A stretch of DNA of 64,000 nucleotides from contig NC_087393.1 in assembly GCF_963675165.1 (NCBI RefSeq), positions 2,299,502-2,363,501 of the forward strand. Reading direction: 5' to 3'. Under the pieces are notes generated by a model that did not search any database, was not told the origin of the DNA, and saw only the letters and a list, made by a program, of their open reading frames with translations. Shown here piece after piece: positions 1 through 64,000 of the stretch; the stretch's first letter is position 1, and every line of letters begins with the position of its first letter. The DNA is from Halichondria panicea. Its lineage: Eukaryota > Porifera > Demospongiae > Suberitida > Halichondriidae. The position numbers and the translations under genes were made by a program.

Positions 1-3000
1 TGGTCGTGTGGAGCTTTGCAAACTTTTTTCAACGTACTATTATAGACTGTATAACATGTCACTGTGTTTGCAACTATATGCATACCTCAATCCTCATAAA
101 TTAAAAAAGTGTAAGCATCAGAGGAGGTACGACAGGCGCGGTGCAGCTCAAGCAATTAGCCTTTGCTTGAGCAATAATTATCCGCCCAGGCCCCGCCCAC
201 GTCATATGTTTTTGCTGCACCGCGCCTGTCGAACCTCCTCTGCATGTACATGTCTCGACCCACAGGACGTATTGGGACAAGTTGTGCAGTGAAGCATTGA
301 ACAGACAAACTTACAGAAAAATTGTGGCAATGGTATAGGAAAATCAGGTCCAACACTGGGGCACCGTGAATCTGTGTTTGGAGATACGTTAAAAAGTGCA
401 AAACAATAGTGCGAATTGTACAAAATCGTGTCACTTACTGCAGCCGATTTCATCGTTTCCATTGGGACAGTCTGGTTCCCCGTCACAGACATACGGAAAA
501 GGAAGAAAACAGTTGTTCTCATCGCCACAACTGAAGCCAAGTCCAATAGGTCCTGCATGAAAATGATCGAGATACTAGATCTATCATTAATACGTAGAAT
601 ACATTCAAATTCATATAAGTCCCGCTTTTGAGAAATTCCAACAAGTGCTTTCTGATTTTTCACTGTGCGTGCATTTCTTATACCTTGACAGATAAACGAT
701 GACTCATCTTTGCCATTGGGACAATCCAGCTGTCCATTACAAATTAACATATTGCTTATGCAAGTGTTGTTATCATTATTGCAAGAGAGAAAACCAGCGG
801 TACAATCTGATAGTGTAAAGAAACATCAGTCGTTTTATCTACATGGGCAATGATCACTTACTTTCACACATTACATTGCTCTCGTCCGTACCGTTACTGC
901 AGTCTGGTATTCCATCACAGAATTGCTCAAATACCAGACACTCCGAAGCTTCTTCATTGCAGGGTGCACTACCCAAAGGGCAAATGGGAAGATCTAATAA
1001 TTAAAACCATGTCAATACAGGGAACAACCAAGTATCTCGACTATAGAGTATACGTGCAATAGTATAATTATAAGGTAACACCACAATTCTTGCAACAGCC
1101 AATTGCTTACTGTTGACAATTTGCCCACAGATGTCCACACTCTCATCCTCCCCGTTTTCACAGTCTATCTCTCCATTACATACCAGACTGCTCGAGATAC
1201 ACTGAGTGCTACCGTCAAGGAACTTGCAAACTCGCAAATCTTCTATGTTGGGGCAGCCTGCATTGAGCAGTATATGAATACGTATATAGTTCACACTGTC
1301 ATCAATAGATACTGATTACTCTTATGGATACACTGATATATATACCACACAGCCAAAAACAAAGACACGTGACATTTTAAACATGCTGGTAACAAATTTG
1401 AAAGTAAATCGGTGGAAAAATCCAACTGTACAAACAGTATCCGGTTCCCCATGCATGCACAAGCCTTTCAAAAGCAATAATTATAATGGTAATTTTGAAT
1501 GTGAATGTATGATAGGTAAAACATCTTTTAGCTTGACAGCATGCAATGATATTTATTTACCGCAAAGGTCCACAGATTCATCATATCCGGTTTGGCAGTC
1601 AGATTCCCCGTTGCATGCGGCGGTATTGCTGAAACACTGATTCTCACCCTGAGAATCGATTACTGAGCACTGCAAAAACCCTTCACCACATTCTGTAGGC
1701 AAATTAAATGTGTGCTCTTTCCTTCCTGAGAATCTTAATTTCAATCACATTATACAAAAGACTGATAACTTGGCACACAGCAATACAGGTTTTATAACGG
1801 CATGAAAATGTGCCTAATATTGTATGTTACATGCATGCAGTAGCACATTTACTATCAGTCTCCATGGATATAGTTTATACATTCGAGACACTTACCACTA
1901 CAGAACTCCTCTGATTCATCTCTCCCATTGGAGCAGTCTACATTGCCATCACAGAAATTATCAATCAGTACACAAGTAGCGCCTGAGGCTGGTTCTCCAT
2001 CCTCACAGTAGACAGTGCCCCCAGGACAGACTGAAATTTAAAAAAGATGACCGTGTGGTTGGTTTATTTGTTATTGAGTGGAGTGACTCACAGTTTGATT
2101 GTGGTATGGACACTTGACCAGTTGAGCCTCCTCCAAAACATTGTAGAACTGTCAACAGGGGTTATTATTAAGTGAGCAACATGTAATCATAATTATAGTT
2201 TTGCATATGCTATGTTATAATTATAATATAGTTGGTGAGTTGGTGAAAAAAGCATTCACCAACAATTGAATACTGTCTGTGATTACAGTGTTGTACTGGG
2301 TGACCGAGCAATCATTCCATCAATCTCCTGCTGATCCCAAGTTGTTTCAGACAATTCATTGCTTGGAACAGAAACACATTGATTAGACTTTAAACTCACA
2401 CCAGCTTGTCGAAATCATCAGCATGTACAAGTTTCCGGCATATAATTTATATATAATATAAATTATAGTAACTATAGAGTACGCACTATTTGTTCTGCAA
2501 TTCTCTTCGTCTCTTCCATTAGAGCAGTCTTCCACACCATTGCATATGAAACCAAAAGGGATGAAGCAGTCAGAACCATCAGCACAGCTGTAGCCCAGTG
2601 GCAAACCACTCCCTAAGAACAAGTATAACAATGATGTTTTGTCAGGATTGCGTTTACTATGCAGTTCCATACCATTCTATACACTAAGACACAACCACCT
2701 ATTACCATGCAGGAGCTATAGAACGGTTCTTGTGGGATATACATTGACTGGTTATTGGAACTAGTATAATTAAGTCACATGCTGTCAAAGATTTCAAATG
2801 AATGCCATTGGTGCGTGCGACTCCTCAGGACAAAAATGAGTGCATGTGCAGTGACTTAAATTATTAAGTCACTGCTCATTGTACCTAGCAATATTACAGC
2901 GCTGTGTATATCATTATAGTGACTTAAATACACGTTGCGGTGGCAGATCTGGGATTCTTGAAAGGGGGGTTCCCCAGGGCTCTGAGCGGGTCAAGAACTG

Positions 3001-6000
3001 TTAAATTTACCTAAAAAAAGGTCGTCACTCTTCGAAACAGTGCATGAGCATGCGCATTAACACACCGAATTTTTGTCCTAAAAAAAATATCATCACTTTT
3101 CATAAGCAGTCTGCATGCACTACACTGGAGAGTTTTTAGCCTTCATTGTCACTGAAACTGCACAGACAAAGCTTCGCAGGACTAACAAGGACTAAAGGTA
3201 AGTGAGAAGTGCATGTGAAAGCTAGTAAGAAAGGAACAACTTGCTAACTAGTTTTGAGCCTCCCACTCACTTCTTTCTCAAAGGGGGGTTCAATTGAACC
3301 CAAAGAACCCCTCTGGATCCGCCACTGCGTTGACTAATATACTGCATATAGATAGCCCATTTGGAATTCAACCCTGTAAACATGTACGTTTGTTTAGTAA
3401 CAAAAAAGAGCTCTGTCACTATTCACGCAGTATGTATATATACGCTTAACACTAACGTCTCGTGATTGAGTAACTACAATAGAGGAGAAAGGAAGTTGCA
3501 TTCCAGAGTGGGATTAGAACCGAATTGTGCTTCCGTTCAAGTTTCATTGTGTGCAACATAATTATATACATGCACCCATGCTCCTGGCAGTAGATTAAAC
3601 AGCCATTACAATGACAATTATGGACTTATAATAATTATTATGTACCACAGAATTCAAATGCCTCATCAGTGCCTCCAGGACAGTCCTCGATACCGTCACA
3701 CAGTTGAAGGTTACTCAAACACACTGTGGTAGTGTTTGGACATAGAATCTCGTCAGTTGGGCAATCTACGGTTAGAACACAACTTTAAATGTGCATGAAA
3801 AATCACACTATAATTGTATATAGGTTACCCTTTTTGCCAATTCTATATAATTATACGCACACTTTTACGAGTCATTCAAACGAAAAAAAGTACTATACAC
3901 TGATCATAGAAAACCCAAATTTAAAATGATATTTACTTAGTTGATAAAGTGTGTTTTGTGAGAGCACTGGCTAAACAGTGGTTAATGGCAGCAGAAGGAC
4001 TGAGAGGTTCTTAGAGGTTAATGTGGTCTTGTGAATGACTGCGCATGTGCAGTACAGTATTAGTATATTGGCAAAAAAGTGTGTCAGAACAAAGTTTCTT
4101 TCATTCCACCTTCCTCTAATCGCTGAGGGGGGGGGATAATTTCATACCACAAGTTCGGGCTGGGGGCACAGCCAGCTCGATTAAGGGGGTTCACCTTTAG
4201 ATAATTATAGGGAGTTGCACCCTCTATAAGGGACCCACTCAGGGAGTGCTCTCCTCAGCCAGGGCACCCCTTCCATTTGGGTGGTGTCTTTAACTTATTG
4301 TTCCGGGCCAAATATGTCAGTTTATGGTGCTTGTCATTGGTGCTTCCCTCGTCTGACATTAAGCATAAAATGATACCAAACAATCGTATAACTGCATGTT
4401 AATTGTGTCATGGATCTCCAATGTGACTCACTTCCACACAATTGCGGTATCTCATCTCCACCATTTTCACAGTCTTGAGCTCCATTACAGAACCAATCAA
4501 AAGACACACACTGAGTACTGTTAGCACAGTTGGCAGTGCCTTGAGGACACCCTAAACAACAGAAAAGTTATGATTTTTGATTCTGATTCCAGAATCAGTC
4601 AACAAGCCATACATGCACACTCTATTTTCTAATTTTCACGCAAAACGAGTGATTTAAGGATGCATGCACACGCAACTAAAACACACAATCTTCTCTAGCT
4701 ATAATGGGCACAACTTTTAATCTTCTAATTATTATGGCATCATATCCTCAAAAACTGACTATATTATTTATACACTTTCCAAGCTTCTACCAACTTGGCG
4801 CAATAAATATGATCATCATTCTCACCACACAAGGTTGTACTCTCATCAAACCCATCATCACAGTCTACTATCCCATCACACAAGAACACACCCAGCATGC
4901 ACTGTGTGATCCCATTATTGAAGCGGCAAAGCGGTAACTGTGTCTGTACAGGGCAACCTGAGAGAGAAGTGAAAATAATACATTTGTCACAATGAGCTCA
5001 TAATTATATCCATAAGTATTCAATTACACTGTAAGTGTTCTGGGTAATCTTGCGAGCTTCAAGTCTGTAGTAGCAACACCTTTCCAGCATCATACTTAAT
5101 CAATTTTGAATCTACCAGCTTACCACATGCCTCGGGAGACTCATCTACTCCATTAGGACAGTCCACCCTTCCATCACACGCCAGAGTATTGCTTACACAA
5201 GTGAATTCAGGATCTCCAGGACATATGAATGTCCCAGGACTACAGTCTGACAAAAAGTTATTATGATTGATTGAGATCAGGGAATTATTTATGTTTACAT
5301 AGTTTATAGGATGCATGGAGGGATACATTCTTGGGATATACACAACCATTGTAGGGATTGTAATATTGCAGCACCAGCTATGTGGCAAACAACTAATCTT
5401 TGTAGTTTCTTACTTCCACAGAATTCAGCAGATTCATCCCTCCCATTGGAACAGTCCACTTGTCCATCACAGTAACGCTCAATGGCCAGGCAAGAGCTTT
5501 CAGAGGCTGGCTCTCCATTCTCGCAATAGATAGAGCCACCAGGGCAGACTGAATGAAAAAAGAATAAACGGCTAACGTATCTCAAGCTAAATAATTATTA
5601 TGGGCAGCCCCAATAAGAGAGTTCACACAAATATTAAGTATTAGAGGAAGTAATTGATCAAGTGGTAAACCACAAGTGTAGTGATTAGGTGAACTCTTCA
5701 CTTAGACTGTACATCTAGTTAATGTTTGTTCTAAAACTGTAGCTGTTGCTGAACTTTGACATTAGATAACTAGGTAGAACATTCTAGAGTTATATGTGTT
5801 CTGTATATAAGTTCTTGAGTTTTGTGCAAGCTAGGTTATGATTAGGTTATGAGTGTTATGCTGTTTCTGTTGTCTACTGCTGTTACAAGAACAAAGTGTG
5901 ACTAGTGTCAACTGCGATATCTGCGAACATTAAGCACATTTATACTACGCACATGTGAGGCATTTATTTAGCTCCAGTGGCAAAACTGTATACAGCAATG

Positions 6001-9000
6001 ATTAAAACTTACAGACACTCTCAGGAATTGTTCCACGAGTTTGAAGACACATGGGATCTGTGTTTAATGATTCTGTCAATACAATTTGTGAATCGTATAT
6101 TTTCAACTAGATCTAAAGTGTGCTACCGTGATCTTTAATGAGGAAGCTACACACAGTAAGTTCTCAGTAGGGAGGGTAATTTGATATTTCCCCTATAGTA
6201 TAATGGTAGGAATATGCCTGCATGGTGATGGTTGAATCACATCAACTAAATGCATTACCAGGAGAAACGACAGTAACGTTTGTTTGAATTGTGATGGCTA
6301 TAGGGTACGTCAACACTCCTTCCACGAGCTGTATGGTGTTAACAATGGTTGTGTCACTCTCAGCTGCCGAAGTAGCTCCTGGTAATACTGAGAATAAGGG
6401 GACTGTGTGCGTGCATACGTGTGTGTGTTCACACAATAATAGCAGAAATACACTTTGACATTCATGCACACTGTATTATTGTCATCAGTATAATATTATA
6501 GCATTGTGGCAATGCAAATACACCTACCGTCATCATCAATAATGGTGACATTGACTACATCATCGACATTGAAAGCCAGCCGTCCAATAGGAGAGGAGTG
6601 TGGCCACAGAAGGATAGTCTCGTTCATCTCAACCATATCATCATTCAGAATAATTAGCTGAGTGGTGTTCCTCGATCCCTCCTGAGAAGTGCTAGGGTAC
6701 AGGAATACTGGGTGTATGCTAAAGTCTTCATTCTCTGTGGATTAGAAACAAGTATGACACAACTAATGCAACTTTGTGGGCACATTAATACGTATAATTT
6801 TAGAGCGAAACTGAACTTGAAGGCACAAGAATTGAGAGCGGAAGTCTCCGACAATTCATATTAGTTCACAAGTGCACTGACTTACCTATAGCAGAGCCGT
6901 TATTGGTGAAGTATATAGTGAGAATAAAAGGAAATTGATTGAATGTTTGAAGGTCAATAAAATTGATGTTTGTGTTGAAGTTTTCAAAGACATCGAGTAC
7001 AGGTACTCAAAATGGAAACACGATGAACACTGCAAAAAAAGTTGTACGTGGTAACATGCAGTTATATACCATGCAGCTAATGAATGGACATGCAGGGAAA
7101 ATTGAAGCACGACAAGAGGTCTGGCTATAATTTATATGCAGTTGCAATTGGCATGTAAACATCACAAACGTATACATGTAGTTACAGTGGAAGATGTGAT
7201 AAACTAGATTAAAAGGTGTTAGTAAGTGTAGTATTACACTAAAGATTGAGCTACGCTGGGTGTACGTACAAACCCACCATCATTGTCCAGAATGATGACA
7301 GTAATGCTGGTATTGAACAAGCCAGACGAAATGGTGAGCATAAAAACTTCATCAAATTCAGCAACAACATCTTCAAAGATCTCAATGGGAACACTCACTA
7401 GTGCTCTGGTATTGTTACTAGAGACGCTAGATGTAGGATCTCCGAATGAGTAGTCCACACCACCTGCATGAATGCAGCAGATGGGATTGCATATAATTAT
7501 TATACATACATGCAATAGGAAAGTAACACCAAAATGTGAATAGCTAATTATAATGAACATTCCTTAGTAAGATAATCTGTCTGTACGCGGCACAACGGTG
7601 TAGGAACAGTGATTAGCCTAACATGCAGAGTTACGTAAAGTCTATATATACAATAAAACGAGTATCCTGTTGTCTTTGAAACCTGGCAAACACAATTAGT
7701 TTCTCTCGTATAATTATAAAGACCATTGGTAACTTTACATGTAAAAGCGTCCCATGCTCATGCATTTAAAGTAGTTCTGGGCATAATAATACGTATTGGT
7801 TCACTCACTTGTGGTATTAATGTTTTGTACATCAGCGACAAAAGCTCGATCCGCAACATCACCAACCAGCTGAAACGTGACAGTCACATTGCCAGCATCC
7901 TCACGAAACATGACCACATCTGCAGCAGCACCTCCATTGATGCTACCTAGGGCTGCGCATTGTAAAATCATGCACTTAATTATGTATATAGCTGCCATCA
8001 CAATACCGATGCAATTTACATAATTAGAATATACCTTCACAAGCTGGTGTTGTTCCATTGAATTCCCCCACTGTCATATTGCCATCGCCACAAGTCCTTG
8101 TCTCATTACCAACCAGAGAGAACCCTACGTCACAGCTGAAATAAGCCTCTGTTCCAAAACTAAAGGCACCTATATTGTTATTATCTGTGCTGTAGGACAC
8201 CGTTCCATTCTCGGGTGCTGAAAGAGTCTCACAGGTAATAGCTGCATGTAGAATTAATGACATTATAATTATACAGTGTATACCGTATAGCGCGAAATTT
8301 TTGAGGGCTTAATTTCCGCGGATTTCGTGGGTTAGAATTCTACATGAAAAGTAAGTCCACGAAAATTGATTTAAGGGCTTCCGGTAAGCAGTCATTCCGC
8401 GAACATTGTGCAACGAAATGGCTTTTAGAGGCCAATCCACGAATTATAAGTGCCTCGAAAATTTCGCGCTATACGGTATATGTCCTTTCGATGCATGATG
8501 GCTATACTAGAGGGTACATTGACCTTTTGTAAAGCTTAAGGGGTATGCAGAAGAGGGCCAATTAAGAAGGGAACATAATTATGTTCTCCCATATCCCTCA
8601 AAAAATTGGAACTTTGAATTACTACATTATTTATTGTTGTACGAATTACACCTGGTCTGTACATTCATCTTTATTTTATCAAGAGGGAAAACAAGGACCT
8701 TTAAGAATAAACATTTGGAACCATTTCCTATACGTACTACATACGTGTTATACATTTTATATATCCTGTATTTGTTCTTACGTTGGCAAGCTGGTACATA
8801 TGTATCAAACACTCCCATGGAGCTGCTGCCATTGCCAACACACACACTGACAGGTTCACCAATGAGAGCAAACCCAAATGAGCAGATGAAGTTTGCCTCT
8901 GTTCCGAAACTGAATAGATCTAGTAAAACTTCCGGTATACTGTATTCAACAATTCCATTGTCCGGCGCTTCTAGTGCTGGGCATCTTATAGCTGCACAAA

Positions 9001-12000
9001 CAAATTATAGAAAGAGAGTACAAAATCATTGTCATAATACAAGTATAATTTAACAATAATAACACATTTTATGACATATTTACAAGCACAGCTAGAACTC
9101 TAGAGATTATACAGATAGAGTAGTACCATGGCATGCATATATAATAATATGCACACAATTGAATCAAAAGATAACCATGCAGGCAAGGGTGGAAGAATGT
9201 ATCCATGCAGACTGAAATACGGTGGTATAGAACTATATATCTGTACTGTTTCTGCAGTTTCTAATTTGACCGCCGTGATAGTTTGGCACTCTGTAGACAA
9301 ATTTTGACAACAAATTTCGAACTGAAAGCACTGGTTATTGCTAGGAAAATTACTAGAATTATAGCTGAATCTATAGAGCAAGAGATTGCGATCTGTATAA
9401 TCTAGAGTTTTTCAACACTACGTATAATCATATCTTCCCTCTATATATTTAACCTCCAATTATCTGTACCTATAGAATCCCGACAATTGCAAAAGCAGAA
9501 TACAAGTATACTAAACTGGGCGGAGCCATGCCAGGCTCCACTCTGTATAATCTGTGACAGTATCCACCGGTATACTGTATGTCTTCTTATATCAATCAAA
9601 AGCATATTTCACATACTCCTATACGTACTACTACGTATATGTAGTCTACACCTACCATTGCACTGAGGTGCAGCACCATTCCACTGTCCTACAGTGTTGA
9701 CTACATCGCCGAGACACACCCTCAGAACATCACCTCCTTCCAGTCCTAGGCCAAGGTTGCAAGTGTACTTAGCCTCAGTGCCAAGCGGGAAAGGGGGTGG
9801 TTGGTTAATGGAATATGTGATCGTTCCGTTTTCAGGCTCAGTGAGTTCGAGACACACCACCGTTTCAGCTGAAAGCAAAAGTATAACTTACATGTACATC
9901 GAAAGCATTCTTTAATAAAAGCCAGTGAGACAACTATATGCCAATGCGGCAACTTGCACAACATTAATGTGACCATGCACACTCCAACATATAATAAGGT
10001 AGTTTTCAGTGTTGACGCAAAATTAATAAAATGTGTACTACAGATACATAACACTCACCCTCGTTGTCAATAATAGTGATAGTTGTGACATCAGTGTCTC
10101 CCCCAGATGAAAACTCTCCTCGAGTTGAGAGTATAGAAGCAACCACAATAATTACCTCATCAATCTCAATGGGTACATCTTGAAGTATAGAGACATTTAC
10201 AAAGAACTTGGTGCCTGGTCCAGAACCAGCCTCAAAGGTCAATGTGGTTCCAAAGCTCAGGTAGTCTTCCCCAACTGTATGTGAGAATGATAAAACATTC
10301 ACATACAGGATTATTACTATATATATATATGTTACATAGAAATACTCCTTCAGAATTTAGTATGCTTACTGGTAGCAAGTCTGTTGTCAGGAAAGAATAT
10401 TCCAAACAAAGTTGCCATCTGTGTTCCATCTTGAACGAGTACATCAATTGGAAACGTGAGCGTTGATTGGACGAGCTCAACACACAGCTGCACAATTGTA
10501 TTACTTTCTTCGGTGAAGTTGGTCTCAGCCACCAACTGAAAAATAGGCACTACAAAAAATATGATTAAATTTAAAATTTGTTTTATGATATACCAACACT
10601 GTTACAGTAGTTCACAAACTCTATAATTTTAGTAACAATAATTATAGTAACACTAAACTAAGTCTAGAAATAATTGACTACATTTAGTTACAGCAGAATG
10701 GATTGCAAGCATGATCGAAGAGATTAGCAATTAAAGTGGTGCAGCTATATTTATGCATGTTTTAGTTTATGCCATACATGATTGTAATCATGATCAGGAG
10801 TCAAGTCGATATAATTATACTCTTTGTAATTTTAGCCTTACTGTGAACCAAGGTACAATACACACACTTCTGTTCATTACCATCGACATCCATAATAGTT
10901 CCCTCTACTAAGTCTTCTCCCACAGGGAATGCCAAACGAGCCAGAGGCATTGTGGTCAGCTGCAATATCAGAGTCTCATTCTCCTCCTCCACCAGTAGGT
11001 CCCGCAGAATGGTTACTTGAGCAGAAGAGGAGACGCCAGGACCAGAACCAGTATCAAACGTTAGGACGAGCGGAGCGGTAAAATCTCCATCTAATAAAAG
11101 TGATAGCCAATGATAGAACATTACTAAAGCAATTTGTATGAATTATCTGAACTATCGTGACGACTTATATAATTATATACATAATCATTGTACTTCAAAG
11201 TACACACTCGCATTTAAAACAGGCAAGGATCCTATAGCTATACGTTCGTGTATTTCAAGTTTTTTTGGTGTCCCTGATATTTTCAAATATAATTATTTAT
11301 GATTGATTGCTGCCATGTAAAGCGTTAGAATTATTAGTTGAATGAAAACTTAACCCATTCAATGATACACACAAATCCATTTACATATATATAATACGTA
11401 AGAATCTCTTACCACTCCTTTTGGCTGTTCCAATGTCATTAAGAACAATCTCCACTGGAAAGGGTAGAGTTCCCACAAGCAGTGACACAACAATGGATTC
11501 AGCGAGCGTACTAGCAGTCTCAGTGACTGTGAATGAGCCTGGCGAATTAGTGATCTGGAACATTACTGCATAAACAAAACCACAGAAGTTATGCATTGCA
11601 GGATACCCATGCAGCCTACGAAATACACACCCTATCATTTCTCACCATCCTCGTCCAAGATGATGACAGTGGCCATAATAAAGGTGGTGTTAACATTGGT
11701 ATCAGGTGAGTCAGCTGTCACCACGAACATCTCGTCAAACTCTATCAGATTGTCATTGAATATATCTATCTGGATACACATCAGAGATCCTGGCCCGCCT
11801 TGAGCAGTGGCATTGAAAAACGTCGAGGTGGTATTTACAAAACTATAGTCCTCAGGTTCTGAGAAGAAATGTCAAAAAACTGTTTACGATATACGCATAA
11901 CTAATTATAGATTTTAGCCATATTCAAGCACAACATGCATGATGCGAAAGAAGTTCATGTTATAGTATACCTGTAGCATTTCCGTTTACTGTGACCAGAC

Positions 12001-17469: not shown

Positions 17470-18380
17470 TGTTGAGGAGCTTTATCCAGTTTTTCCACCA
17501 TGCATGCAGTTGCACTGACTATATAATTAATAATAGCAGATGATAGCTAGATATATACACTAACTTCAAATACGCATGCAGGCTTTATTAAACAGGGCTA
17601 TACAAGAGCAATTCATACCAATCATGTGGACATCCTGGATATTCATTAATTTGTTAGCAAACACAAAAGAGGAATTCGTAACAACATGGATACAGTGGCA
17701 TGCTGTTAGTGGTATCCAATAACTCTGAAATGTCCCTTACACAAATATGGCCTTCGGAATCCACAGATTGCTATTTAGACCTTGTGTTTATGAAACTAGA
17801 TTTAAATGTGAACACTTATAAACAGTCCACATCTAATTGGTTCTACACAGTTTCATGTTTTGTAAATCTAGATGAGCACTGCAGTGACCACACATGCATG
17901 CACATTCTCAAAACGTAATAATTATACTAGATCTAGATGTCTATACCTCTGCTCATAACTGCCATTATAATTTTACACAGCAAGTACATGTTATTTGTAA
18001 AGGACAAAGGTGTGGCTATAGATCAGGATCCAGATCTAGATCTCTGACATGTAGTAGTAGACCTATAGATCTACATGCATGTGTCGGAGCTATAGTCTTG
18101 GGCATGAGCATTAGAATACTATAATCTGCATGTGCATAGTTTCACTCTTCAGTTCTAGTGACCTGTTTTTAAAGGCATTTTGTAATGACAGGTCAATTAT
18201 TGCTTAAGTCAAGTTCTTATGTTTCTCTTGGCCCCAAGGCTTGGCAAATTGTCGTGAACCGTATAAAGCAATGATCACATCTAGATCTATATACATTGCT
18301 GATTCTCTATATAATAGAAGAAGAAGATGCATGTGGAAAAGATTGTGTGGATTTTATTTTATAACCTCCAAGAAAAACTC
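17470..18380. other. Intergenic, probable promoter region of the modular gene (copy A)
   Basis: No exon found. The stretch separates the start codon of the modular gene (17469) from the end of the small secreted-protein gene. It holds several AGATCT-containing short palindromes (around 17930 and 18030-18075), which recur near 18740 and 20400. I see no clear TATA box. Promoter function is inferred from position only. Confidence 0.35.
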
Positions 18381-19309: not shown

Positions 19310-19536
19310 GAAAACAACTTTCACCGCAAGCTAAGATACCCGATTTTATATTATTGTGGTCCGTATATACATGGGTCAGATTGCTTTAGAGTACAATATG
19401 GCCATAATCTTGTAACTGTAATAGTGATGATTATACAATTCAGTAATGCCCTTGCAAATATAAACTTATACTTAGTCATTTCCAAAGTAGAATTTGAATA
19501 TAAATGCCTTAATGTATAACGTACCCCCAAATATTG

Positions 19537-23438: not shown

Positions 23439-23526
<88 letters not shown>

Positions 23527-34977: not shown

Positions 34978-34984
34978 AGATAAT

Positions 34985-36105: not shown

Positions 36106-36116
36106 CAAGAGAGTCT

Positions 36117-50480: not shown

Positions 50481-50666
50481 CTGTCAATACAATTTGTGAA
50501 TCGGATATTTTCAACTAGATCTAGAGTGTGCTACCGTGATCTTTAATGAGGAAGCTACACACAGTAAGTTCTCAGTAGGGAGGGTAATTTGATATTTCCC
50601 CTATAGTATAATGGTAGGAATACGCCTGCATGGTGATGGTTGAATCACATCAACTAAATGCATTAC

Positions 50667-52371
50667 CAGGAGAAACGACAGTAACGTTTGTTTGAATTGT
50701 GATGGCTATAGGGTACGTCAACACTCCTTCCACCAGCTGTATGGTATTAACAATGGTTGTGTCACTCTCAGCTGCCGAAGTAGCTCCTGGTAATACTGAG
50801 AATAAGGGGACTGTGTGCGTGCATACGTGTGTGTGTTCACACAATAATAGCAGAAATACACTTTGACATTCATGCACACTGTATTATTGTCATCAGTATA
50901 ATATTATAGCATTGTGGCAATGCAAATACACCTACCGTCATCATCAATAATGGTGACATTGACTACATCATCGACATTGAAAGCCAGCCGTCCAATAGGA
51001 GAGGAGTGTGGCCACAGAAGGATAGTCTCGTTCATCTCAACCATATCATCATTCAGAATAATTAGCTGAGTGGTGTTCCTCGATCCCTCCTGAGAAGTGC
51101 TAGGGTACAGGAATACTGGGTGTATGCTGAAGTCTTCATTCTCTGTGGATTAGAAACAAGCATGACACAACTAATGCAACTTTGGTGGCACATTAACTAT
51201 AACTTAATACGTATAATTTTAGAGCGAAACTGAACTTGAAGGCACAAGAATTGAGAGCGGAAGTCTCCGACAATTCATATTAGTTCACAAGTGCACTGAC
51301 TTACCTATAGCAGAGCCGTTATTGGTGAAGTATATAGTGAGAATAAAAGGAAATTGATTGAATGTTTGAAGGTCAATAAAATTGATGTTTGTGTTGAAGT
51401 TTTCAAAGACATCGAGTACAGGTACTCCAAATGGAAACACGATGAACACTGCAAAAAAAGTTGTACGTGGTAACATGCAGTTATATACCATGCAGCTAAT
51501 GAATGGACATGCAGGGAAAATTGAAGCACGACAAGAGGTCTGGCTATAATTTATATGCAGTTGCAATTGGCATGTAAACATCACAAACGTATACATGTAG
51601 TTACAGTGGAAGATGTGATAAACTAGATTAAAAGGTGTTAGTAAGTGTAGTATTACACTAAAGATTGAGCTACGCTGGGTGTACGTACAAACCCACCATC
51701 ATTGTCCAGAATGATGACAGTAATGCTGGTATTGAACAAGCCAGACGAAATGGTGAGCATAAAAACTTCATCAAATTCAGCAACAACATCTTCAAAGATC
51801 TCAATGGGAACACTCACTAGTGCTCTGGTATTGTTACTAGAGACGCTAGATGTAGGATCTCCGAATGAGTAGTCCACACCACCTGCATGAATGCAGCAGA
51901 TGGGATTGCATATAATTATTATACATACATGCAATAGGAAAGTAACACCAAAATGTGAATAGCTAATTATAATGAACATTCCTTAGTAAGATAATCTGTC
52001 TGTACGCAGCACAACGGTGTAGGAACAGTGATTAGCCTAACATGCAGAGTTATGTAAAGTCTATATATACAATAAAACGAGTATCCTGTTGTCTTTGAAA
52101 CCTGGCAAACACAATTAGTTTCTCTCGTATAATTATAAAGACCATTGGTAACTTTACATGTAAAAGCGTCCCATGCTCATGCATTTAAAGTAGTTCTGGG
52201 CATAATAATACGTATTGGTTCACTCACTTGTGGTATTAATGTTTTGTACATCAGCGACAAAAGCTCGATCCGCAACATCACCAACCAGCTGAAACGTGAC
52301 AGTCACATTGCCAGCATCCTCACGAAACATGACCACATCTGCAGCAGCACCTCCATTGATGCTACCTAGGG
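50667..52371 (-). CDS. Calx-beta domains 4-5 and first half of 6 (copy B)
   Basis: Matches 6259-7952. The codon that is TGA in copy A is GGA here, so the domain 5 exon reads PFGVPVLDVFENF without interruption. Confidence 0.83.
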
Positions 52372-52451
52372 CTGCGCATTGTAAAATCATGCACTTAATT
52401 ATGTATATAGCTGCCATCACAATACCGATGCAATTTACATAATTAGAATAC

Positions 52452-53704
52452 CTTCACAAGCTGGTGTTGTTCCATTGAATTCCCCCACTGTCATATTGCC
52501 ATCGCCACAAGTCCTTGTCTCATTACCAACCAGAGAGAACCCTACGTCACAGCTGAAATAAGCCTCCGTTCCAAAACTAAAGGCACCTATATTGTTATTA
52601 TCTGTGCTGTAGGACACCGTTCCATTCTCGGGTGCTGAAAGAGTCTCACAGGTAATAGCTGCATGTAGAATTAATGACATTATAATTATACAGTGTATAC
52701 CGTATAGCGCGAAATTTTTGAGGGCTTAATTTTCGCGGATTTCGTGGGTTAGAATTCTACATGAAAAGTAAGTCCACGAAAATTGATTTAAGGGCTTCCG
52801 GTAAGCAGTCATTCCGCGAACATTGTGCAACGAAATGGCTTTTAGAGGCCAATCCACAAAATCATTGTTATAATACAAGTATAATTTAACAATAATAACA
52901 CATTTTATGACATATTTACAAGCACAGCTAGAACTCTAGAGATTATACAGATAGAGTAGTACCATGGCATGCATATATAATAATATGCACACAATTGAAT
53001 CAAAAGATAACCATGCAGGCAAGGGTGGAAGAATGTATCCATGCAGACTGAAATACGGTGGTATAGAACTATATATCTGTACTGTTTCTGCAGTTTCTAA
53101 TTTGACTGCCGTGATAGTTTGGCACTCTGTAGACAAATTTTGACAACAAATTTCGAACTGAAAGCACTGGTTATTGCTAGGAAAATTACTAGAATTATAG
53201 CTGAATCTATAGAGCAAGAGATTGCGATCTGTATAATCTAGAGTTTTTCAACACTACGTATAATCATATCTTCCCTCTATATATTTAACCTCCAATTATC
53301 TGTACCTATAGAATCCCGACAATTGCAAAAGCAGAATACAAGTATACTAAACTGGGCGGAGCCATGCCAGGCTCCACTCTGTATAATCTGTGACAGTATC
53401 CACCGGTATACTGTATGTCTTCTTATATCAATCAAAAGCATATTTCACATACTCCTATACGTACTACTACGTATATGTAGTCTACACCTACCATTGCACT
53501 GAGGTGCAGCACCATTCCACTGTCCTACAGTGTTGACTACATCGCCGAGACACACCCTCAGAACATCACCTCCTTCCAGTCCTAGGCCAAGGTTGCAAGT
53601 GTACTTAGCCTCAGTGCCAAGCGGGAAAGGGGGTGGTTGGTTAATGGAATATGTGATCGTTCCGTTTTCAGGCTCAGTGAGTTCGAGACACACCACCGTT
53701 TCAG
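52452..53704 (-). CDS. Two sushi domains (copy B); middle one deleted
   Basis: Exons 53492-53704 and 52452-52658 match sushi 1 and 3 of copy A. The intervening exon is gone, together with the right end of a MITE. The junction CCAATCCAC/AAAATC shares AC with both parent edges. Because all three exons start and end in phase 1, sushi 1 still joins sushi 3 in frame. Confidence 0.9.
52689..52858. mobile_element. MITE, truncated by deletion (copy B)
   Basis: The left end TATACCGTATAGCGCG and most of the body match 8279-8440. The right inverted repeat is missing: sequence jumps from CCAATCCAC directly to AAAATCATTG, which in copy A lies 582 bases further on. Confidence 0.8.
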
Positions 53705-53894
53705 CTGAAAGCAAAAGTATAACTTACATGTACATCGAAATCATTCTTTAATAAAAGCCAGTGAGACAACTATATGCCAATGCGGCAACTTGCACAACAT
53801 TAACGTGACCATGCACACTCCAATATATAATAAGGTAGTTTTCAGTGTTGACGCAAAATTAATAAAATGTGTACTACAGATACATAACACTCAC

Positions 53895-55935
53895 CCTCGT
53901 TGTCAATAATAGTGATAGTTGTGACATCAGTGTCTCCCCCAGATGAAAACTCTCCTCGAGTTGAGAGTATAGAAGCAACCACAATAATTACCTCCTCAAT
54001 CTCAATGGGTACATCTTGAAGTATAGAGACATTTACAAAGAACTTGGTGCCTGGTCCAGAACCAGCCTCAAAGGTCAATGTGGTTCCAAAGCTCAGGTAG
54101 TCTTCCCCAACTGTATGTGAGAATGATAAAACGTACAACATTCACATACAGGATTATTACTATATATATATGTTACATAGAAATACTCCTTCAGAATTAA
54201 GTATGCTTACTGGTAGCAAGTCTGTTGTCAGGAAAGAATATTCCAAACAAAGTTGCCATCTGTGTTCCATCTTGAACGAGTACATCAATTGGAAACGTGA
54301 GCGTTGATTGGACGAGCTCAACACACAGCTGCACAATTGTATTACTTTCTTCGGTGAAGTTGGTCTCAGCCACCAACTGAAAAATAGGCACTACAAAAAA
54401 TATGATTAAATTTAAATTTGTTTTATGATATACCAACACTGTTACAGTAGTTCACAAGCTCAATAATTATAGTAACAATAAACTAAGTCTAGAAATAATT
54501 GACTACATTTAGTTACAGCAGAATGGATTGCAAGCATGATCGAAGAGATTAGCAATTAAAGTGGTGCAGCTATATTTATGCATGTTTTAGTTTATGCCAT
54601 ACATGATTGTAATCATGATCAGGAGTCAAGCCGATATAATTATACTCTTTGTAATTTTAGCCTTACTGTGAACCAAGGTACAATACACACACTTCTGTTC
54701 ATTACCATCGACATCCATAATAGTTCCCTCTACTAAGTCTTCTCCCACAGGGAATGCCAAACGAGCCAGAGGCATTGTGGTCAGCTGCAATATCAGAGTC
54801 TCATTCTCCTCCACCAGTAGGTCCCGCAGAATGGTTACTTGAGCAGAAGAGGAGACGCCAGGACCAGAACCAGTATCAAACGTTAGGACGAGCGGAGCGG
54901 TAAAATCTCCATCTAATAAAAGTGATGGCCAATGATAGAACATTACTAGAGCAATTTGTATGAATTATCTGAACTATCGTGACGACTTATATAATTATAT
55001 ACATAATCATTGTACTTCAAAGTACACACTCGCATTTAAAACAGGCAAGGATCCTATAGCTATACGTTCGTGTATTTCAAGTTTTTTTGGTGTCCCTGAT
55101 ATTTTCAAATGTAATTAATTATGATTGATTGCTGCCATGTAAAGCGTTAGAATTATTAGTTGAATGAAAACTTAACCCATTCAATGATACACACAAATCC
55201 ATTTACATATATATAATACGTAAGAATCTCTTACCACTCCTTTTGGCTGTTCCAATGTCATTAAGGACAATCTCCACTGGAAAGGGTAGAGTTCCCACAA
55301 GCAGTGACACAACAATGGATTCAGCGAGCGTACTAGCAGTCTCAGTGACTGTGAATGAGCCTGGCGAATTAGTGATCTGGAACATTACTGCATAAACAAA
55401 ACCACAGAAGTTATGCATTGCAGGATACCCATGCAGCCTACGAAATACACACCCTATCATTTCTCACCATCCTCGTCCAAGATGATGACAGTGGCCATGA
55501 TAAAGGTGGTGTTAACATTGGGATCAGGTGAGTCAGCTGTCACCACGAACATCTCGTCAAACTCTATCAGATTGTCATTGAATATATCTATCTGGATACA
55601 CATCAGAGATCCTGGCCCGCCTTGAGCAGTGGCATTGAAAAACGTCGAGGTGGTATTTACAAAACTATAGTCCTCAGGTTCTGAGAAGAAATGTCAAAAA
55701 ACTGTTTACGATATACGCATAACTAATTGTAGATTTTAGCCATATTCAAGCACAACATGCATGACGCGAAAGAAGTTCATGTTATAGTATACCTGTAGCA
55801 TTTCCGTTTACTGTGACCAGACTCACAACCACATCTCTGGGTAAAAACCCCTCAGTGGCTATTTCCAGACAAACTGTTACATTCCCCACATCCTCTCTCA
55901 CCAAGTACTCATCTTGGGTGAATCGAAAGTCAATG
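53895..55935 (-). CDS. Calx-beta domains 1-3 (copy B)
   Basis: Six exons parallel to 10059-12114, all open. The only length change is the loss of one Glu codon in the second half of domain 2. Confidence 0.83.
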
Positions 55936-56247
55936 GCTGGAAGGAGAGTCTAAATAAAACTCACTTATAGCTGTTAGCTATAATTATATATAGTTAACGT
56001 TGATTTTAATACGTGGTATAAAAAAAAGAAAGCTTACCCTGAGAGATATTTCGAAGGTGTTACTATAGAGAGGGGGGTTTGTTATGTAATACCACGTAAA
56101 AAACAATGATGAAATTACAAATTAATGCAGCCACAGCAGATACCAGGAAGCATAATTATGATCATGAACTATAAAACACACTCAACTATATATCACCTTT
56201 TGTCAGTGATATCTATAATGTATACGTACTCAGGTAAAGACCCTTAC

Positions 56248-57966
56248 CGATGCTTTCAATAATCTCTTGAAATCTTCCTGGCTGTTCCCTGCACGATATA
56301 CAGAAGCAAACACAGTATAGTCATCACATACATACATACACTACATATACTTGCCTCTCTGTGCAGTTGAATATTACGTCTATAATAGTGATCAGGACGG
56401 GGTTGATTGTCATCTGATTCAATACAGCAAGCCCAACATCATTGTTAGTGTAGTCTGTATATACAACACAAAAAGTATACAGTTTGTGGCACAGTAGATG
56501 CAATACTTAATACAGATATAATATTGAAGGAAAATTAGCAGGATACGGATACTCACTGCATTGCACAGGCTGTATATTCTCAGTTAAACGTCTTATTCGA
56601 CGAGATCTTTCAGGAGTATGCCTTGCAAACCGAGGATTGGCTGTGGTAACATTATCTCCAGTATCATCGCCCTCTATTCCGAGGCCGTCCAAGTCAATGG
56701 GGGGTGGTTCCAACTCATCGAGGGTTAAGGCCTCACCATTACCCTCAAGTGCCAGCCTCGAATGTGCAGCCAGGAGGATACCAGTGACATCCGCCACGCG
56801 AGCAGCAGGGATTACAGCCTGTCAGCATGCACATGGAAGGAACCGTTACAAATGTATTTTGGAAAGGGACTTGTCAATACTGCATACTGTAGTGCTAGTA
56901 CGTAATGCTAGTACGTAATGGTAGGGTAATGAAGTACTTTGAGACCTCTCATCAAACGCAAATGGTTTCAAACAAAAATGAATTGTGATGACTAACCTCC
57001 GGTGGTGTGTTCCCCAACTCAGGGAGGGTCGTAAATGATGTGAAGAAGACAAACACTCCAGCTCTAGTTAATGGACCTGCATCGATTGAAGGGATAGTAC
57101 TCTAAAGACTAGGGTATATATATGCCGACTTCATAGTACCCTCAAGTCATAGTAGATTTTATAATGCTTCACTCATGTGTCAGAACACCGAATGAAAATC
57201 AATGTCATACCGACATTACCTCAAATTATGAAGTTGATATAATTATGCATTTCATAAAAGCAAACAAGTGTCTTAATTGAAGTCTTACACCTTGCATACA
57301 TGGCTTCTATTTGCCAATATTAGTAACCATGCAGACAATTCACAAATCAGGTGGTACTATCGTACTATACCATACTTATACTACCACTAACCAGGTCCTG
57401 AGAAGATTGTGACAGAATCGTTAGTCAGTGGAGCTTCACGAATGAATTCCAGCTGGGTACCGTTGGTATCTATGACTACCAGCTTGTTGATGGGTGATGG
57501 CAACCTTTTTTGGGGAATTTGAGAATTTGAGCATTTCATTTAAGTAACTTACGTACGTACGTAACTCTTAAAATAGCAATACTGATCAATAGCTACATTC
57601 TATGAACACTTCTTCTTTCAGAAATACATAATTTTATTGACCCTTTATATATACGTTAGATTTTGCACCTGCGTATGACTGCCATGTTCGTCATGTCAAG
57701 AATAGTGACCACTCTGTTGACGTACGTGATGCCACCATTAAAAGGAACATTAACCTCATCCACACTGCAGGCCAGGGTTGTGGCATCCTCCAAACTGAGA
57801 GTGCTTCTCTTCATTCGCTTAACATACTCCACTTGACGCGTAACTCTGGCACTCTGGGCATATAATTAATACACGATTCACAGTGATGTACTATTGATAT
57901 ATCTCTGGAGCAGCCAACTTACAAACAATTGTCGTGAATTAGAGCCTTGTCCTCCACTGTTATCAT
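56248..57966 (-). CDS. Linker with two furin-like motifs (copy B)
   Basis: Counterpart of 12422-14148. Both RMKR and RIRR motifs are kept, as is the GC donor. Differences are few: EGDD for EDDD and RFQE for RIQE. Confidence 0.68.
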
Positions 57967-58263
57967 CTATATGGTAGTAGTATAAGCAAGATTTAAAGAA
58001 TGTGTTAATCTAATTTCTAGCCTGAGTTTGACTTATGAATTCACTAGCAGACTGCTTGTACATGCATGTACAATGGTCATGCATGGATTCCTTTTTACTC
58101 CTAATGTTATAGGCTCCTGAGCTGCTATACCATTACACACACAGAAAACTTATTTAGTGTGCATGCCTGGACGTCCCCTTACAATAAATTTACGAACAGT
58201 GTCCTATGATGTAAGTATAACGTAATTGTATATACGGTAACACTGGTTGAAACATAATTACAC

Positions 58264-58435
58264 CAAGGGCGTATAAAAGAAGAGAGGGCATGCAACTCCA
58301 CTATCAGTATACGTAGCTAGCAGAGCTCAAAATTTCTATTTTTGGCACTTCATGCAAATGCACACATTCCTCCGCCCACGTTTGAACTCTGCTCATATGG
58401 GAGTTGCATGCCCTCTCTTCTTTTATACGCCCTTG
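58264..58435. mobile_element. MITE with CAAGGGCGTATAAAAGAAGA ends (copy B)
   Basis: Same element and position as 14445-14617, with both arms intact. Confidence 0.82.
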
Positions 58436-58615
58436 ATTACACTACTTAAAACTGTAATTTTGGGGACTCATTATAATTATAATCTGGCTGTTTCTTGTAG
58501 ATGAATAGCCTCCTTCACAGGCCCAATGTGGTTGTCCAGGGGTATGTCCGATGGGGTCAGGGGGGTCAACTTTTAAGGTGTATGCTGGTTTAAGGTAACT
58601 ATAGGATTCACTTAC

Positions 58616-61310
58616 TGCCAGTCATTGCTAGTAAGCCAGTGCTCACACACACTACAGTGGCCGAGAACCCAGGAAACCTTCCCCTGTCACTGGTCCTCAG
58701 GATTACCTCAATAGTACCTGCAGTTAAAGTGCATTCTTATAACGAGCAAAGAATCTAAGTATATACGTGATGTGCATGTATGTGCATGCAATGCCACACA
58801 ATGTACATCTCAGAATGAAGGGCAAGAGTCGCCGAGGGGTATGTAACCACAATATATGTAGTGGACAAATATGGGGTCCATATAATTATTATGGGTTTGG
58901 TATCTGAATTATGCCATGTCACAGCAGCACTGTAAAAAAGGACCTCCCCTAGCAACAATCGAATGCACGGTGCTACTGCAAAAAGAGCAGGACTTCGCAG
59001 CTGTCATGCAAAGAGTTGCTCAGGATAGAGGTGAATGTTGTGGTGTGACACATGGTGGACTGGTGGTAAATGTGGGTATGTATGGAGACTTATCAAATAA
59101 AAAAACTTGCATTATACACCTATGTTATTTTATATGTCTTACAACTGTTGATCAATAGAGTAGTGATGTAAGTGTGGTGTGTTTACACTCTAGATTTGAC
59201 AATTGTTATATATACATAACACGCTCGAGATACTAAAGCAGTGCCTCATCTAGGCTAAAGTGTATAACTATCATAATAATTTATAGGTCGTACTGCTTTA
59301 AATGCATGGCATGCAAATTGGGTCAAGCTTACTGGGGACAACTTTTTTAGTAGGAGATTTTTAAACCTGCCTTTTAAGCGAGAATGCAGTGTATAATTAT
59401 TATCATTACAGCTTGAGATTCATGAGGTGGATGTATACACCTACCAGAATCAAGCGAAGATGCTAGTTCACTGGGAATGTTGGTGCCACAGGTTTCAATA
59501 AAGCCAAACCCTCCTCCACCTCTGCTCACTTGGAGGGAATCGATGCACCTACAAAATAAAACATGTATCAATCATTTCACACAAACAGTTGCATTGGTCT
59601 GTTTACCATGTAAATACCATTCATTGAGATATTTGATAGTCTAATACGTACGTGTTACTTTTTTGTAAAATTAGATTACCATAGTTCCTGTATGGTTAAC
59701 TATGCTTCCTGTTACTGTTATTGTGATTGTTTGTATGAGTTCTGTGACGTGGTGCTGTTCGTTAGTACGTGATTTCTGCTTATACTAATATAGTTGCATG
59801 TTTGTTGTTGTTTCATGATTGTTGTTCTTTGTATCTATAGCTATAGTTATATAGAGGCTCGCTCCAGGCGGCTCTCTTGTGTATGCATGGGAGCCTCTGC
59901 AGGTCCACTACCTTTGTCTTGTGCCTATATACTTAAATTATGCCAGTTATGCCGTTGCATGTTCTTGTGCATTTTATAAGTTATTGGATAACTCTATTTC
60001 AAACTCAAACGTCTGCATAATTCAGCGACATTAAATAGATACCAATTATTGCATGTACTCCTTAGTGCAATCAATAAAATTTTCCCTGCAATAATAATAA
60101 TTATAGTTATCTACGTCCAACTAAATGGTATACGTAGTATGCATTTCATGAATCATGTACATGTATGGAACTAAAGGTGCTACATTTTTAGAAAGTGTTA
60201 CATTAAGTAATCTATCGGATAAGGCAAAACTGGCATGCCATACTTTGTTTGGAGAACACTATGCACATAGAAGCACACGCAGACCAATAAAACTGACCTA
60301 ACTATCAGTAGTTACAATCACATAGTTTATGCTTATGACATTCTGGCTAATAAGTATATTGACACACCTTGGCTGAGGGAAATTACGATCCTCGCATATC
60401 GGCTCCTCAATTTCCAGAGATGTGAGATTGAAGAAAGCAAAATGATTATCCGGACACTGCACTCTATACTTCATTAGAAACTGGTTGCCATAACTGCAAA
60501 AACATCAGCTCATGATCAATGAACCGTTATAGGTATATTCGATGCACTCCTGGCGCGCATGCATGCATGTGTTCATATAAATTATCTTATATGTGATGCA
60601 TACATTCTACATGCAGTCATGCTATACGTTGTAATAATTATAGGTGTGTGTAAATGAACATGCACACTAACTTTGTTGGGTTGGCCAATGACCTCCCTGG
60701 TGAAAAGAGGTAGTAAACGCGTGGGTCTCCTCCTATTGTATCGAGTGGCCGCACAATGTCATCTCTGCTTCGAATCACGCAAGTTCTGGAGTTTCAATTC
60801 CCACGTATTCTTGTGGTATAGATAGCATACTGACTGGAGGACATAGATAGACGTTAAAGTATAATACATGATTCCTTCAAAAAATCTAACTCAACTCGAC
60901 CACTAAAGTATACGCTCTCTATCAAATGCAATTCAACATACTTTGGTTGTGGAACATCTGTGCGGGCTGTATTCACAATTGTACAATTAAGGACATCCAG
61001 TCTGTTCAAAAGGCAGCCACGTGGTCTTCCAAACCGGGGCTGTGAGGAAGAGCTGCATGACGAGGGAAATAAAATATAAATTGGACCATATTAAAGGAGT
61101 CACTGATCTGACTTCACACTGACATACAATTAATATACACCAACAGTAAACCATGCATGCATGTCATGCAGGAAGGAGACTACATTATAAAGAACGAGGC
61201 TTTAAGATTTACCATGAGTACAAATAATTATGCTAAAGATACATAATATTATATATATACCTTGAAATCAAGCATACAAAAATCAAGGAAAATGCAGCAA
61301 TGACAGTCAT
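58616..61310 (-). CDS. Signal peptide and CUB exons (copy B), with in-frame TGA
   Basis: Same six exons as 14798-17469. In the third, the phase-correct frame reads TGA at 60794-60796 where copy A reads CGA (16959-16961). This is a single C-to-T change in a CpG on the coding strand. The rest of the exon and its splice sites are intact. Confidence 0.8.
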
Positions 61311-62147
61311 TGTTGAGGAGCTTTATCCAGTTTTTCCACCATGCATGCAGTTGCACTGACTATATAATTAATAATAGCAGATGATAGCTAGATATATACA
61401 CTAACTTCAAATACGCATGCAGGCTTTATTAAACAGGGCTATACAAGAGCAATTCATACCAATCATGTGGACATCCTGGATATTCATTAATTTGTTAGCA
61501 AACACAAAAGAGGAATTCGTAACAACATGGATACAGTGGCATGCTGTTAGTGGTATCCGATAACTCTGAAATGTCCCTTACACAAATATGGCCTTCGGAA
61601 TCCACAGATTGCTATTTAGACCTTGTGTTTATGAAACTAGATTTAAATGTGAACACTTATAAACAGTCCACATCTAATTGGTTCTACACAGTTTCATGTT
61701 TTGTAAATCTAGATGAGCACTGCAGTGACCACACATGCATGCACATTCTCAAAACGTAATAATTATACTAGATCTAGATGTCTATACCTCTGCTCATAAC
61801 TGCCATTATAATTTTACACAGCAAGTACATGTTATTTGTAAAGGACAAAGGTGTGGCTATAGATCAGGATCCAGATCTAGATCTCTGACATGTAGTAGTA
61901 GACCTATAGATCTACATGCATGTGTCGGAGCTATAGTCTTGGGCATGAACATTAGAATACTATAATCTGCATGTGCATAGTTTCACTCTTCAGTTCTAGT
62001 GACCTGTTTTTAAAGGCATTTTGTAATGACAGGTCAATTATTGCTTAAGTCAAGTTCTTATGTTTCTCTTGGCCCCAAGGCTTGGCAAATTGTCGTGAAC
62101 CGTATAAAGCAATGATCACATCTAGATCTATATACATTGCTGATTCT
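61311..62147. other. Intergenic, probable promoter region of the modular gene (copy B)
   Basis: Counterpart of 17470-18380 with few changes; no exon found. The conserved AGATCT-rich palindromic patch (61770-61910) is present. Confidence 0.35.
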
Positions 62148-63147
62148 CTATATAATAGAAGAAGAAGATGCATGTGGAAAAGATTGTGTGGATTTTATTT
62201 TATAACCTCCAAGAAAAACTCCTAAAGGATACACCTCTTGCTTTGAATTCTCTGTACAGCTTGCATATAGGACTGGAACCTTGCAAAGACCTGGGTTGAA
62301 CTGCATGGCAACTAGCTCTATGTATAGAATGGTTATAGCATGCATGAGGCTTTATGTCCCAATGCTCGATGGCTGCATGAGGATCAACACTATAACCATC
62401 TAACCTCACTCACCAAGACACTGCCCTTTTTTGATAGCAACAGCTTCGAAAACTGAGTGAGAATGATAATGGCAGCCTGGAAAGCCTTCTACAAAGAGTG
62501 AATATTAATCTTATTGTTGAAAAGGTATACCTGACTCCTTTTAGGCAGGTATTTGAATGTATGTTAATTCCCTATAGATCTAGTTTCTTATAGATCTAGT
62601 GCATTAGAAACAGCCTTAATTGTATGCATGCATGCATGCACTCATCAATGAATGATTTCAGCAGACACAGAAGAGCAACCATTATTCTCGAATTACCCAC
62701 CAAGAAATAGTGAAGAATATGGCTTTGGGGCTCATTACAACCAACAGATAGAAGTAAGTCAGTTTTTCCTAACATTGAACACAAACACCATGGCAAATTG
62801 CCAAGTGCTTTTTCAGGGAGTCTGCAGACATCATCTCGATTTAGCTTACCCAACGAGAACTCATTAGATCTGAGTCGACAATCATTGAAAAAAGAAGAAG
62901 AGTCTTGAGAGTATTTAATCTTCTCATGGAAACTCCCACACCCAGGAGCGTGCTCCATTGCATGTTTTACCCTCAAACGAGCCAAGGAACATATCCAAAA
63001 GGCAACTAGCTCTTTCTCACACCCGTGTATAGAGCTTTCACGACTAGCTGATGCCACTTCACAGCACTTATCACGAACAATCTCACTGTAACTGCTCTCA
63101 CCAATTCTTATGTGTGAGTTAATAGTCCATACAATGATGATAATCAT
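62148..63147 (-). CDS. Small putative secreted Cys-rich protein, copy B, open
   Basis: Exons 62850-63147, 62414-62488 and 62148-62317 join in phase 1, with donors GTAAGC and GTGAGT and acceptors ending TAG. The predicted product has an N-terminal hydrophobic leader followed by a Cys-rich body and a Ser-rich end (ASSSSII). No family recognised. It lies upstream of the modular gene on the same strand. The exons are short and no homologue was available, so the model rests on splice phase and on the contrast with the broken copy A. Confidence 0.45.
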
Positions 63148-63404
63148 GAAAACAACTTTCACCGCAAGCTAAGATACCCGATTTTATATTATTGTGGTCC
63201 GTATATACATGGGTCAGATTGCTTTAGAGTACAATATGGCCATAATCTTATAACTGTAATAGTGATGATTATACAATTCAGTAATGCCCTTGCAAATATA
63301 AACTTATACTTAGTCATTTCCAAAGTAGAATTTGAATATAAATCCCTTAATGTATAACGTACCCCCAAATATTGCTAATTTATTGCATGGTGATTTTGTA
63401 TTGA

Positions 63405-63770
63405 CTATTTATCCAACGGGGACAGAGGAAGGCATGTCAGAGCTTCTCTCAGTTGAGCTTGCCAGACTACAAGATGGTCAATACTTCTATCCATGCTTAT
63501 AGAAAGCCATTCTCTATGTCCATGCAAACAGCCACAGTCCACAATACAATACACTGGCCTAGCCCTGTGAAGATCGAGCAGATCCAAAAGTACGAAGACT
63601 GCAAGACAAAAGGTTTATTAATTTTTCTCCAAATTGTGTGGACAAAGACACACAAACCTGAAACTTTCCTTCTCTCTTCATCCATATGGAGTCTTGTAAC
63701 TGAAGAGAGGCGTTCAAAACTGCACCAAGTGTATCGAGATACGAGGCTTGCACTACAATTGACAATGGCA
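63405..63770 (-). other. Possible exons, counterpart of 19537-19905 (copy B)
   Basis: Same layout as in copy A. The open frame ends earlier, at a TAG at 63405, because of a single change, and has two extra residues (in-frame 6-bp indel near 63560). Confidence 0.25.
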
Positions 63771-64000
63771 TTATTAACTTTGAAGAAGATTTTATCTTTT
63801 CGTCTGCATGTCAATCCAGAAGATCATGACACAATCAAACAATACAAACACCCATCTTGTATTCATGATTCAAACCGAAGTGCATGTATAAGTAGTCTAT
63901 ATAATTATAACTAGAGTAAAGTATCAATCACCGGACGTCATCATATGTCGGACACCAATATCGTCAAAACTACAAAAGATACAGACACCATTCAAAGACC

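Follow-up and report, generated by a model that had tools for sequence, protein, structure and literature searches.

Are two near-identical 20-kb blocks in a sponge genome assembly two haplotypes of one polymorphic gene, two paralogues decaying separately, or a pair of genes in which readthrough or editing matters? This question, posed by a first-pass annotation, concerns a 64,000-nucleotide stretch of Halichondria panicea DNA (contig C17:2299502-2363501, henceforth 'the window'; negative coordinates denote positions to the left of window position 1), in which each block was said to carry its own, different coding lesion. By comparing the window with itself (BLASTN) we confirmed that the two copies, A and B, match through their introns over the extent originally claimed, in three pieces (1-5638 with 44719-50342, 5926-8443 with 50334-52860 and 9020-20081 with 52856-63914) that are 97.4-98.8% identical when gaps are counted. 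The account that we favour, and consider likely, is a true tandem array of a large gene for a modular extracellular protein, in which A, B and a third copy, X, exchange sequence, A and B carry private lesions and X has none that we found. The parts of the array inside the window are the following.

1-20081, minus strand: copy A, from table exon 34 back to a CUB-like exon and some 5' flank, delimited by self-BLASTN; its left edge lies just outside the window.
44719-63914, minus strand: the part of copy B that matches A; the gene of B extends left to 40792.
20078-32223, no strand: the intergenic 5' flank of A, with counterparts beside X (-11242 to -94) and B (66967-78348).

When the opening 3 kb of B were searched against the genome (131 Mb, 39 contigs), a third long match appeared at C17:2267618, left of the window, and this is copy X. 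The repeat shared by A and B extends rightward beyond the 20-kb block, as far as 32223 (A) and 78348 (B), and the three young units span -40898 to -94 (X), -61 to 32223 (A) and 35777 to 78348 (B). An older paralogue, Z, lies at about -77059 to -46295 and is 78-97% identical to the young copies over the main matching pieces, and part of a fifth copy is found at -43805 to -40907. X, A, B and Z all stand in tandem at one locus of one N-free stretch, with zero N across the 144 kb that hold X, A and B and across the 174 kb that include Z. Linker exon 6 of the gene has six matches in the genome, five of them in this cluster and a weak one elsewhere (expectation value, E, 2.5e-4). Missing from copy A is the left portion of the unit, which holds the 3' end of the gene (table exons 35-43), and the left edge of A at -61 abuts the 5' flank of X, with 32 bases between. 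A dispersed stretch of 100 bases (44830-44940), which recurs on many contigs mostly at 87-94% identity, is found near the left edge of the A/B match and the truncation point of A.

The gene bodies and the DNA between them differ in how far they have diverged. Mismatches in gene-body introns numbered 95 of 10924 (X-A), 71 of 12871 (X-B) and 76 of 10949 (A-B), i.e. 0.55-0.87%, and in the coding sequence of the young copies synonymous divergence (dS) was 0.95-1.6% and nonsynonymous divergence (dN) 0.32-0.51%. In the intergenic 5' flank, by contrast, mismatches numbered 432 of 10167 (X-A), 501 of 9098 (X-B) and 334 of 10657 (A-B), i.e. 3.1-5.5% (pieces of at least 300 bases, with one small overlap), and the flanks diverge 2.6-7 times more than the gene-body introns even with low-identity pieces excluded. 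The relationships between the copies also change along their length. With the first 900 alignment columns, which reach the block edge, excluded from the mosaic tests, the alignment held 230 clean two-state sites at which the odd copy was X (109), A (85) or B (36); by odd copy these sites formed 95 runs, compared with a mean of 142 in 10,000 shuffles, none of which was as low. Since the diverged 5' flank of X could drive this result, the test was redone on the gene body only (from the CUB-like exon on), where 156 sites formed 74 runs against 97.9, again with none of 10,000 shuffles as low. At 36 sites polarised with Z as outgroup, the derived state was common to X and B at 10, to A and B at 5 and to X and A at 4, was private to one copy at 15 and fell into neither class at 2. 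The mosaic and the contrast between body and flank point to sequence exchange between the copies, and both patterns expected of concerted evolution were found: conflicting genealogies along the copies, and similar gene bodies with more diverged spacers. In the scenario that we propose, duplication would have given rise to X, A and B beside the older Z; gene conversion or unequal crossing over, to judge from the mosaic, would have kept their gene bodies alike while the intergenic DNA drifted; and a deletion would have removed the 3' end of A, with A and B gaining private lesions.

Several observations weigh against the favoured account. The flank counts include repeat-rich pieces, and leaving out pieces below 85% identity lowers them to 2.3% (X-A), 3.9% (X-B) and 2.7% (A-B); a shorter cut of the gene body weakens the runs test (112 sites, 51 runs against 63.9, with 27 of 10,000 shuffles as low); and the shared-derived groupings lie only partly in separate tracts, being interleaved at A positions 12844-13790 and 17013-17172. 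Older allelic mosaicism fixed in the duplicates would mimic the pattern left by conversion, and the assembly may be mis-joined. As regards the gene itself, three of the 34 symmetric exons described below (rows 27, 32 and 37) were accepted because they fitted phase 1-1, no 5' end, signal peptide or membrane anchor was found, and the function of the gene is inferred from its domains.

A mixed account, in which one real tandem duplication is joined by one false haplotypic duplication and a chromosome carries fewer copies than were assembled, draws on the near-identity of X and B over table exons 9-25 and on a run of 2,408 columns that hold no X- or B-private clean site, as alleles might. However, it is the 5' flanks of X and B that differ most (5.5%) and those of A and B that differ least (3.1%), and no N occurs at any join; we regard this account as improbable. 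We find it quite improbable that the copies are simply two haplotypes of one gene, both retained in the assembly as a false duplication. A gene-body difference below 1% is within the range of heterozygosity of many animals, and the lesions of A and B do differ; yet haplotypes as the sole account are disfavoured by the number of versions at the locus (three young copies and Z, all in tandem without N, where two haplotypes would give at most two), by the different 3' boundary of A, which abuts the flank of X, and by the rise in mismatches from less than 1% within the genes to 3-5% between them, since haplotypes alone predict no jump at gene edges. In addition, the outer flanks of the array (6,000 bases on the right and 2,400 on the left) match only themselves at full length among the 40 candidates scored for each, their partial matches elsewhere being dispersed repeats.

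What kind of gene is repeated here was assessed with exon models (one gene per copy) from a compact splice-aware finder whose training set was 1,802 codons chosen by eye. Five exons of B that the finder skipped were checked by hand, two of which it had found in X, and row 4 of the exon table is distrusted as an exon, the finder having started it at an ATG with no AG acceptor. Two proposals of the finder, a join of the last exons of A to X and a start of A at an open reading frame (ORF) in the spacer, were dropped as unsupported 5' joins. From 5' to 3' the gene consists of CUB-like exons, a linker, Calx-beta pairs, sushi, further Calx-beta pairs, 18 LDLa-type exons, half a Calx-beta, an Ig-like exon and a C-terminal domain. 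On the minus strand Pfam recognised Calx-beta, LDLa and sushi domains, and it gave no match in the plus frames of 44657-54658 (10 kb). In copy B the main groups of exons lie as follows.

42515-50252, minus strand: 18 LDLa-type exons, recognised by Pfam and motif; 12 of them are present in A (5548-439).
50667-55936, minus strand: Calx-beta-type and sushi exons, recognised by Pfam; the counterpart in A is 6259-12114.
40792-41609, minus strand: C-terminal exon, weakly COLFI-like and absent from A.

Pfam supports the central domains: in a joined piece made of X exons and one A exon, Calx-beta (PF03160) matched over three stretches with E of 3.2e-24 and sushi with E of 4.3e-18, LDLa reached E of 3.9e-70 with 12 stretches passing Pfam individually, and 17 of the 18 LDLa exons of X fit the motif, the 18th having been read by eye. 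The labels at the two ends are weaker. No Pfam CUB match was obtained at E <= 1 with the joined piece, the best match in the PDB being C1s (E = 0.37), and the Ig-like exon scored 14.9 bits with Ig_3, under the cut-off of 30. The C-terminal domain resembles COLFI weakly (E 0.028 in Pfam and 0.088 in the PDB) and is matched at least 152 times across the genome, with concentrations on contigs C5 and C13, as a large family without a good Pfam name; its single-sequence AlphaFold2 model (predicted local distance difference test, pLDDT, 36) was unusable, and the domain may have a distant fibrinogen fold. Neither VWA nor VWD was matched at E <= 0.01 in minus-strand frames of 34701-64000 or at E <= 1 in the joined exon pieces, which cover the exons found so far. 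Exons 9-42 are all symmetric (34 of 34 are phase 1-1 and 3n in length), so whole domains can drop out, be added or be skipped with the reading frame intact; this would account for differences in domain number and may lessen the effect of lesions. Judged by its domains, the product is most likely an extracellular adhesion or recognition protein; recognition specifically, the step to which the first-pass annotation had pointed, is a tentative possibility.

How far, then, have the copies decayed? Copy X retains 42 of the 43 table rows, all open (the doubtful row 4 included); A has 34 rows, of which 33 are open and one contains a TGA; and B has 42, of which 41 are open and the remaining one, the Ig-like exon, is one base short. 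The differences in question are these.

7007-7009, minus strand: TGA in A, codon 7 of a Calx-beta-type half exon (7029-6886, phase 1-1); GGA in X and B; exon not found in Z.
60794-60796, minus strand: TGA in B, within the CUB-like exon 60833-60672; CGA in X, A and Z, i.e. a CpG C to T change.
8782-8991, minus strand: sushi exon, present in A and Z (-58202 to -58411) and absent from X and B.
41811-42085, minus strand: Ig-like exon of B, 275 nt against 276 nt in X, with one T of a six-T run gone (T6 to T5).

The TGA in the Calx-beta exon of A (a half-Calx-beta label assigned by eye) and the Ig frameshift of B were both found as first described, the latter in an exon that lies outside the coordinates earlier given for B and that we took as the one meant. 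The TGA of B is also present, in an exon whose description as CUB is weakly supported for want of the Pfam match noted above. That exon is not among the table exons and was picked up by a search for stops not common to all copies. Because Z conserves both the acceptor and the coding part of this exon but not the preceding intron, and because the exon is open in X, A and Z, we count the TGA as a genuine exon lesion; a weaker acceptor at 60785, beyond the TGA and apparently in the same phase, could bypass it. The sushi exon reported as lost from B is indeed missing there, but the loss is not private to B: since the exon is missing from both X and B and present in A and Z, the simplest account would be that X and B share a single deletion, not that B lost the exon on its own. 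The copies split likewise at exon 12, where the form in A and Z is 3 bp longer.

Coding constraint was measured on counts from which row 4, the CUB-like exon (60833-60672) and the final 54 bases of the C-terminal exon, with its stop, had been left out. Between Z and the young copies, over 14 or 15 exons, dS was 0.113-0.126 and dN 0.041-0.045 (dN/dS ~0.36). Among the young copies nonsynonymous changes made up 18 of 29 (X-A, the stop counted), 16 of 30 (X-B) and 17 of 34 (A-B), where the neutral site count expects 77%, a deficit with one-sided p of 0.048, 0.0033 and 0.0005, respectively, in three pairwise tests that share branches and ignore transition bias. Because constraint is still visible between the young copies, the lesions look recent, although this is not a strong date. 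The earlier suggestion of paralogues decaying separately is thus supported in its core and needs amending in its detail: one loss is common to X and B, the third copy has no lesion that we found, A also lacks its whole 3' end and coding constraint persists.

Could the point lesions be consensus errors of the assembly? The T6 to T5 change in the Ig-like exon is a homopolymer loss, a common type of error, and it is possibly a sequencing error; both TGAs, on the other hand, are single-base substitutions, the one in B being a CpG C to T change, and the loss of the 3' end of A is structural, which leaves us very doubtful of this explanation for the point lesions as a set. Translation of A and B through their stops by readthrough, recoding or editing is highly unlikely and finds no support, for although coding changes between the copies are below the simple neutral share, one would expect recoded stops to occur in more than one copy and neither stop does (a sense codon stands at the B site in X, A and Z and at the A site in X and B), and readthrough would not cure the Ig frameshift of B or the missing 3' end of A.

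The older neighbour Z carries CUB-like to Calx-beta exons followed by 26 sushi exons, with no LDLa motif found, and neighbouring genes of the locus therefore differ in both the type and the number of their domains. Of the 26 sushi exons, 25 are open, encode four cysteines and are bounded by AG and by GT or GC, whereas the last has no donor and runs into a stop. Within the array 24 of the 26 are of one close type (-75866 to -58593), and the last 21 of these (from -66810) alternate between two forms as a two-exon repeat of ~865 bases, with a mean pairwise difference of 3.3% among the 11 exons of one form and 1.8% among the 10 of the other. The array is a coding tandem repeat of whole exons and is possibly polymorphic in length. 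It is interrupted by a 7-kb insert with an open 556-residue transposase ORF (Pfam DDE_Tnp_1_7; piece L010:4329-5996, minus strand), which we take to be of the piggyBac type; an exon candidate at -64107 to -64370 proved to be part of this ORF and was rejected. The C-terminal exon of Z is badly broken, and Z therefore carries a lesion of its own.

The remaining features of the window lie mostly between the genes.

35131-36081, minus strand: retroelement reverse-transcriptase ORF, spanning the left edge of unit B.

Between A and the gene of B, at 36117-37185, lie short satellite-like repeats in both direct and inverted orientation, and four longer ORFs (33523-33960, 38200-38742, 62599-63168 and 30690-31307) gave no Pfam match at E <= 0.01. 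Elsewhere in the genome, a cathepsin L-like frame at C9:2570213-2570782 seems to have Ser where the catalytic Cys is expected, as in silicateins.

Among known systems, mollusc FREPs likewise place an Ig-like part beside a C-terminal domain, which here may belong to the fibrinogen/COLFI group; unlike FREPs, the present gene has no Pfam fibrinogen match, an Ig match below cut-off and many more domains. The Botryllus fuhc and fester allorecognition loci also comprise large genes at one locus and offer a lead for the idea of self-recognition. A literature search combining sponge, Calx-beta, sushi and aggregation factor returned no paper, and further searches, of titles and openings of abstracts, turned up no mention of this gene, a result that cannot show its absence from print. 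Sponge aggregation factor genes, reportedly the subject of Grice et al. 2017 and treated in a review (PMC10815962), are also clustered and have Calx-beta in a large extracellular protein. The family is further marked by a VWA or VWD domain and a Wreath domain; the present gene shares the several Calx-beta domains and differs in its sushi, LDLa, Ig-like and COLFI-like parts and in having no VWA or VWD match in the parts scanned. In a sponge grafting study (PMC5450542), aggregation-factor adhesion genes were not significantly enriched. The sea urchin SpTransformer clusters, as described in one report (PMC8634487), resemble this locus in their clustered similar genes, tandem duplication and mosaic repeats in coding sequence, and their copy number is thought to be variable (PMC8634487). 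In contrast to SpTransformer, the protein here is unrelated, the varying units are whole symmetric exons and the locus is known from one genome.

A more ambitious reading is that of a recognition locus built to vary, in which the exon arrays (the 18 LDLa-type exons of X and of B and the 26 sushi exons of Z) would expand, contract, swap and die in frame, conversion would reshuffle them, individuals would differ in the number and order of domains, and the stops would be tolerated, exon-skippable variants; we hold this to be unlikely. The tandem array that we favour illustrates well a type of gene cluster already known, and the exon array that adjoins it is striking. The locus presents, clearly and without N, a cluster of modular extracellular genes that shows divergence, sequence exchange among copies, expansion of exon arrays and private decay side by side. 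If domain number differs among individuals, the locus would offer a tangible candidate for recognition diversity that can be typed, and the sushi array of Z would be the best place to look.

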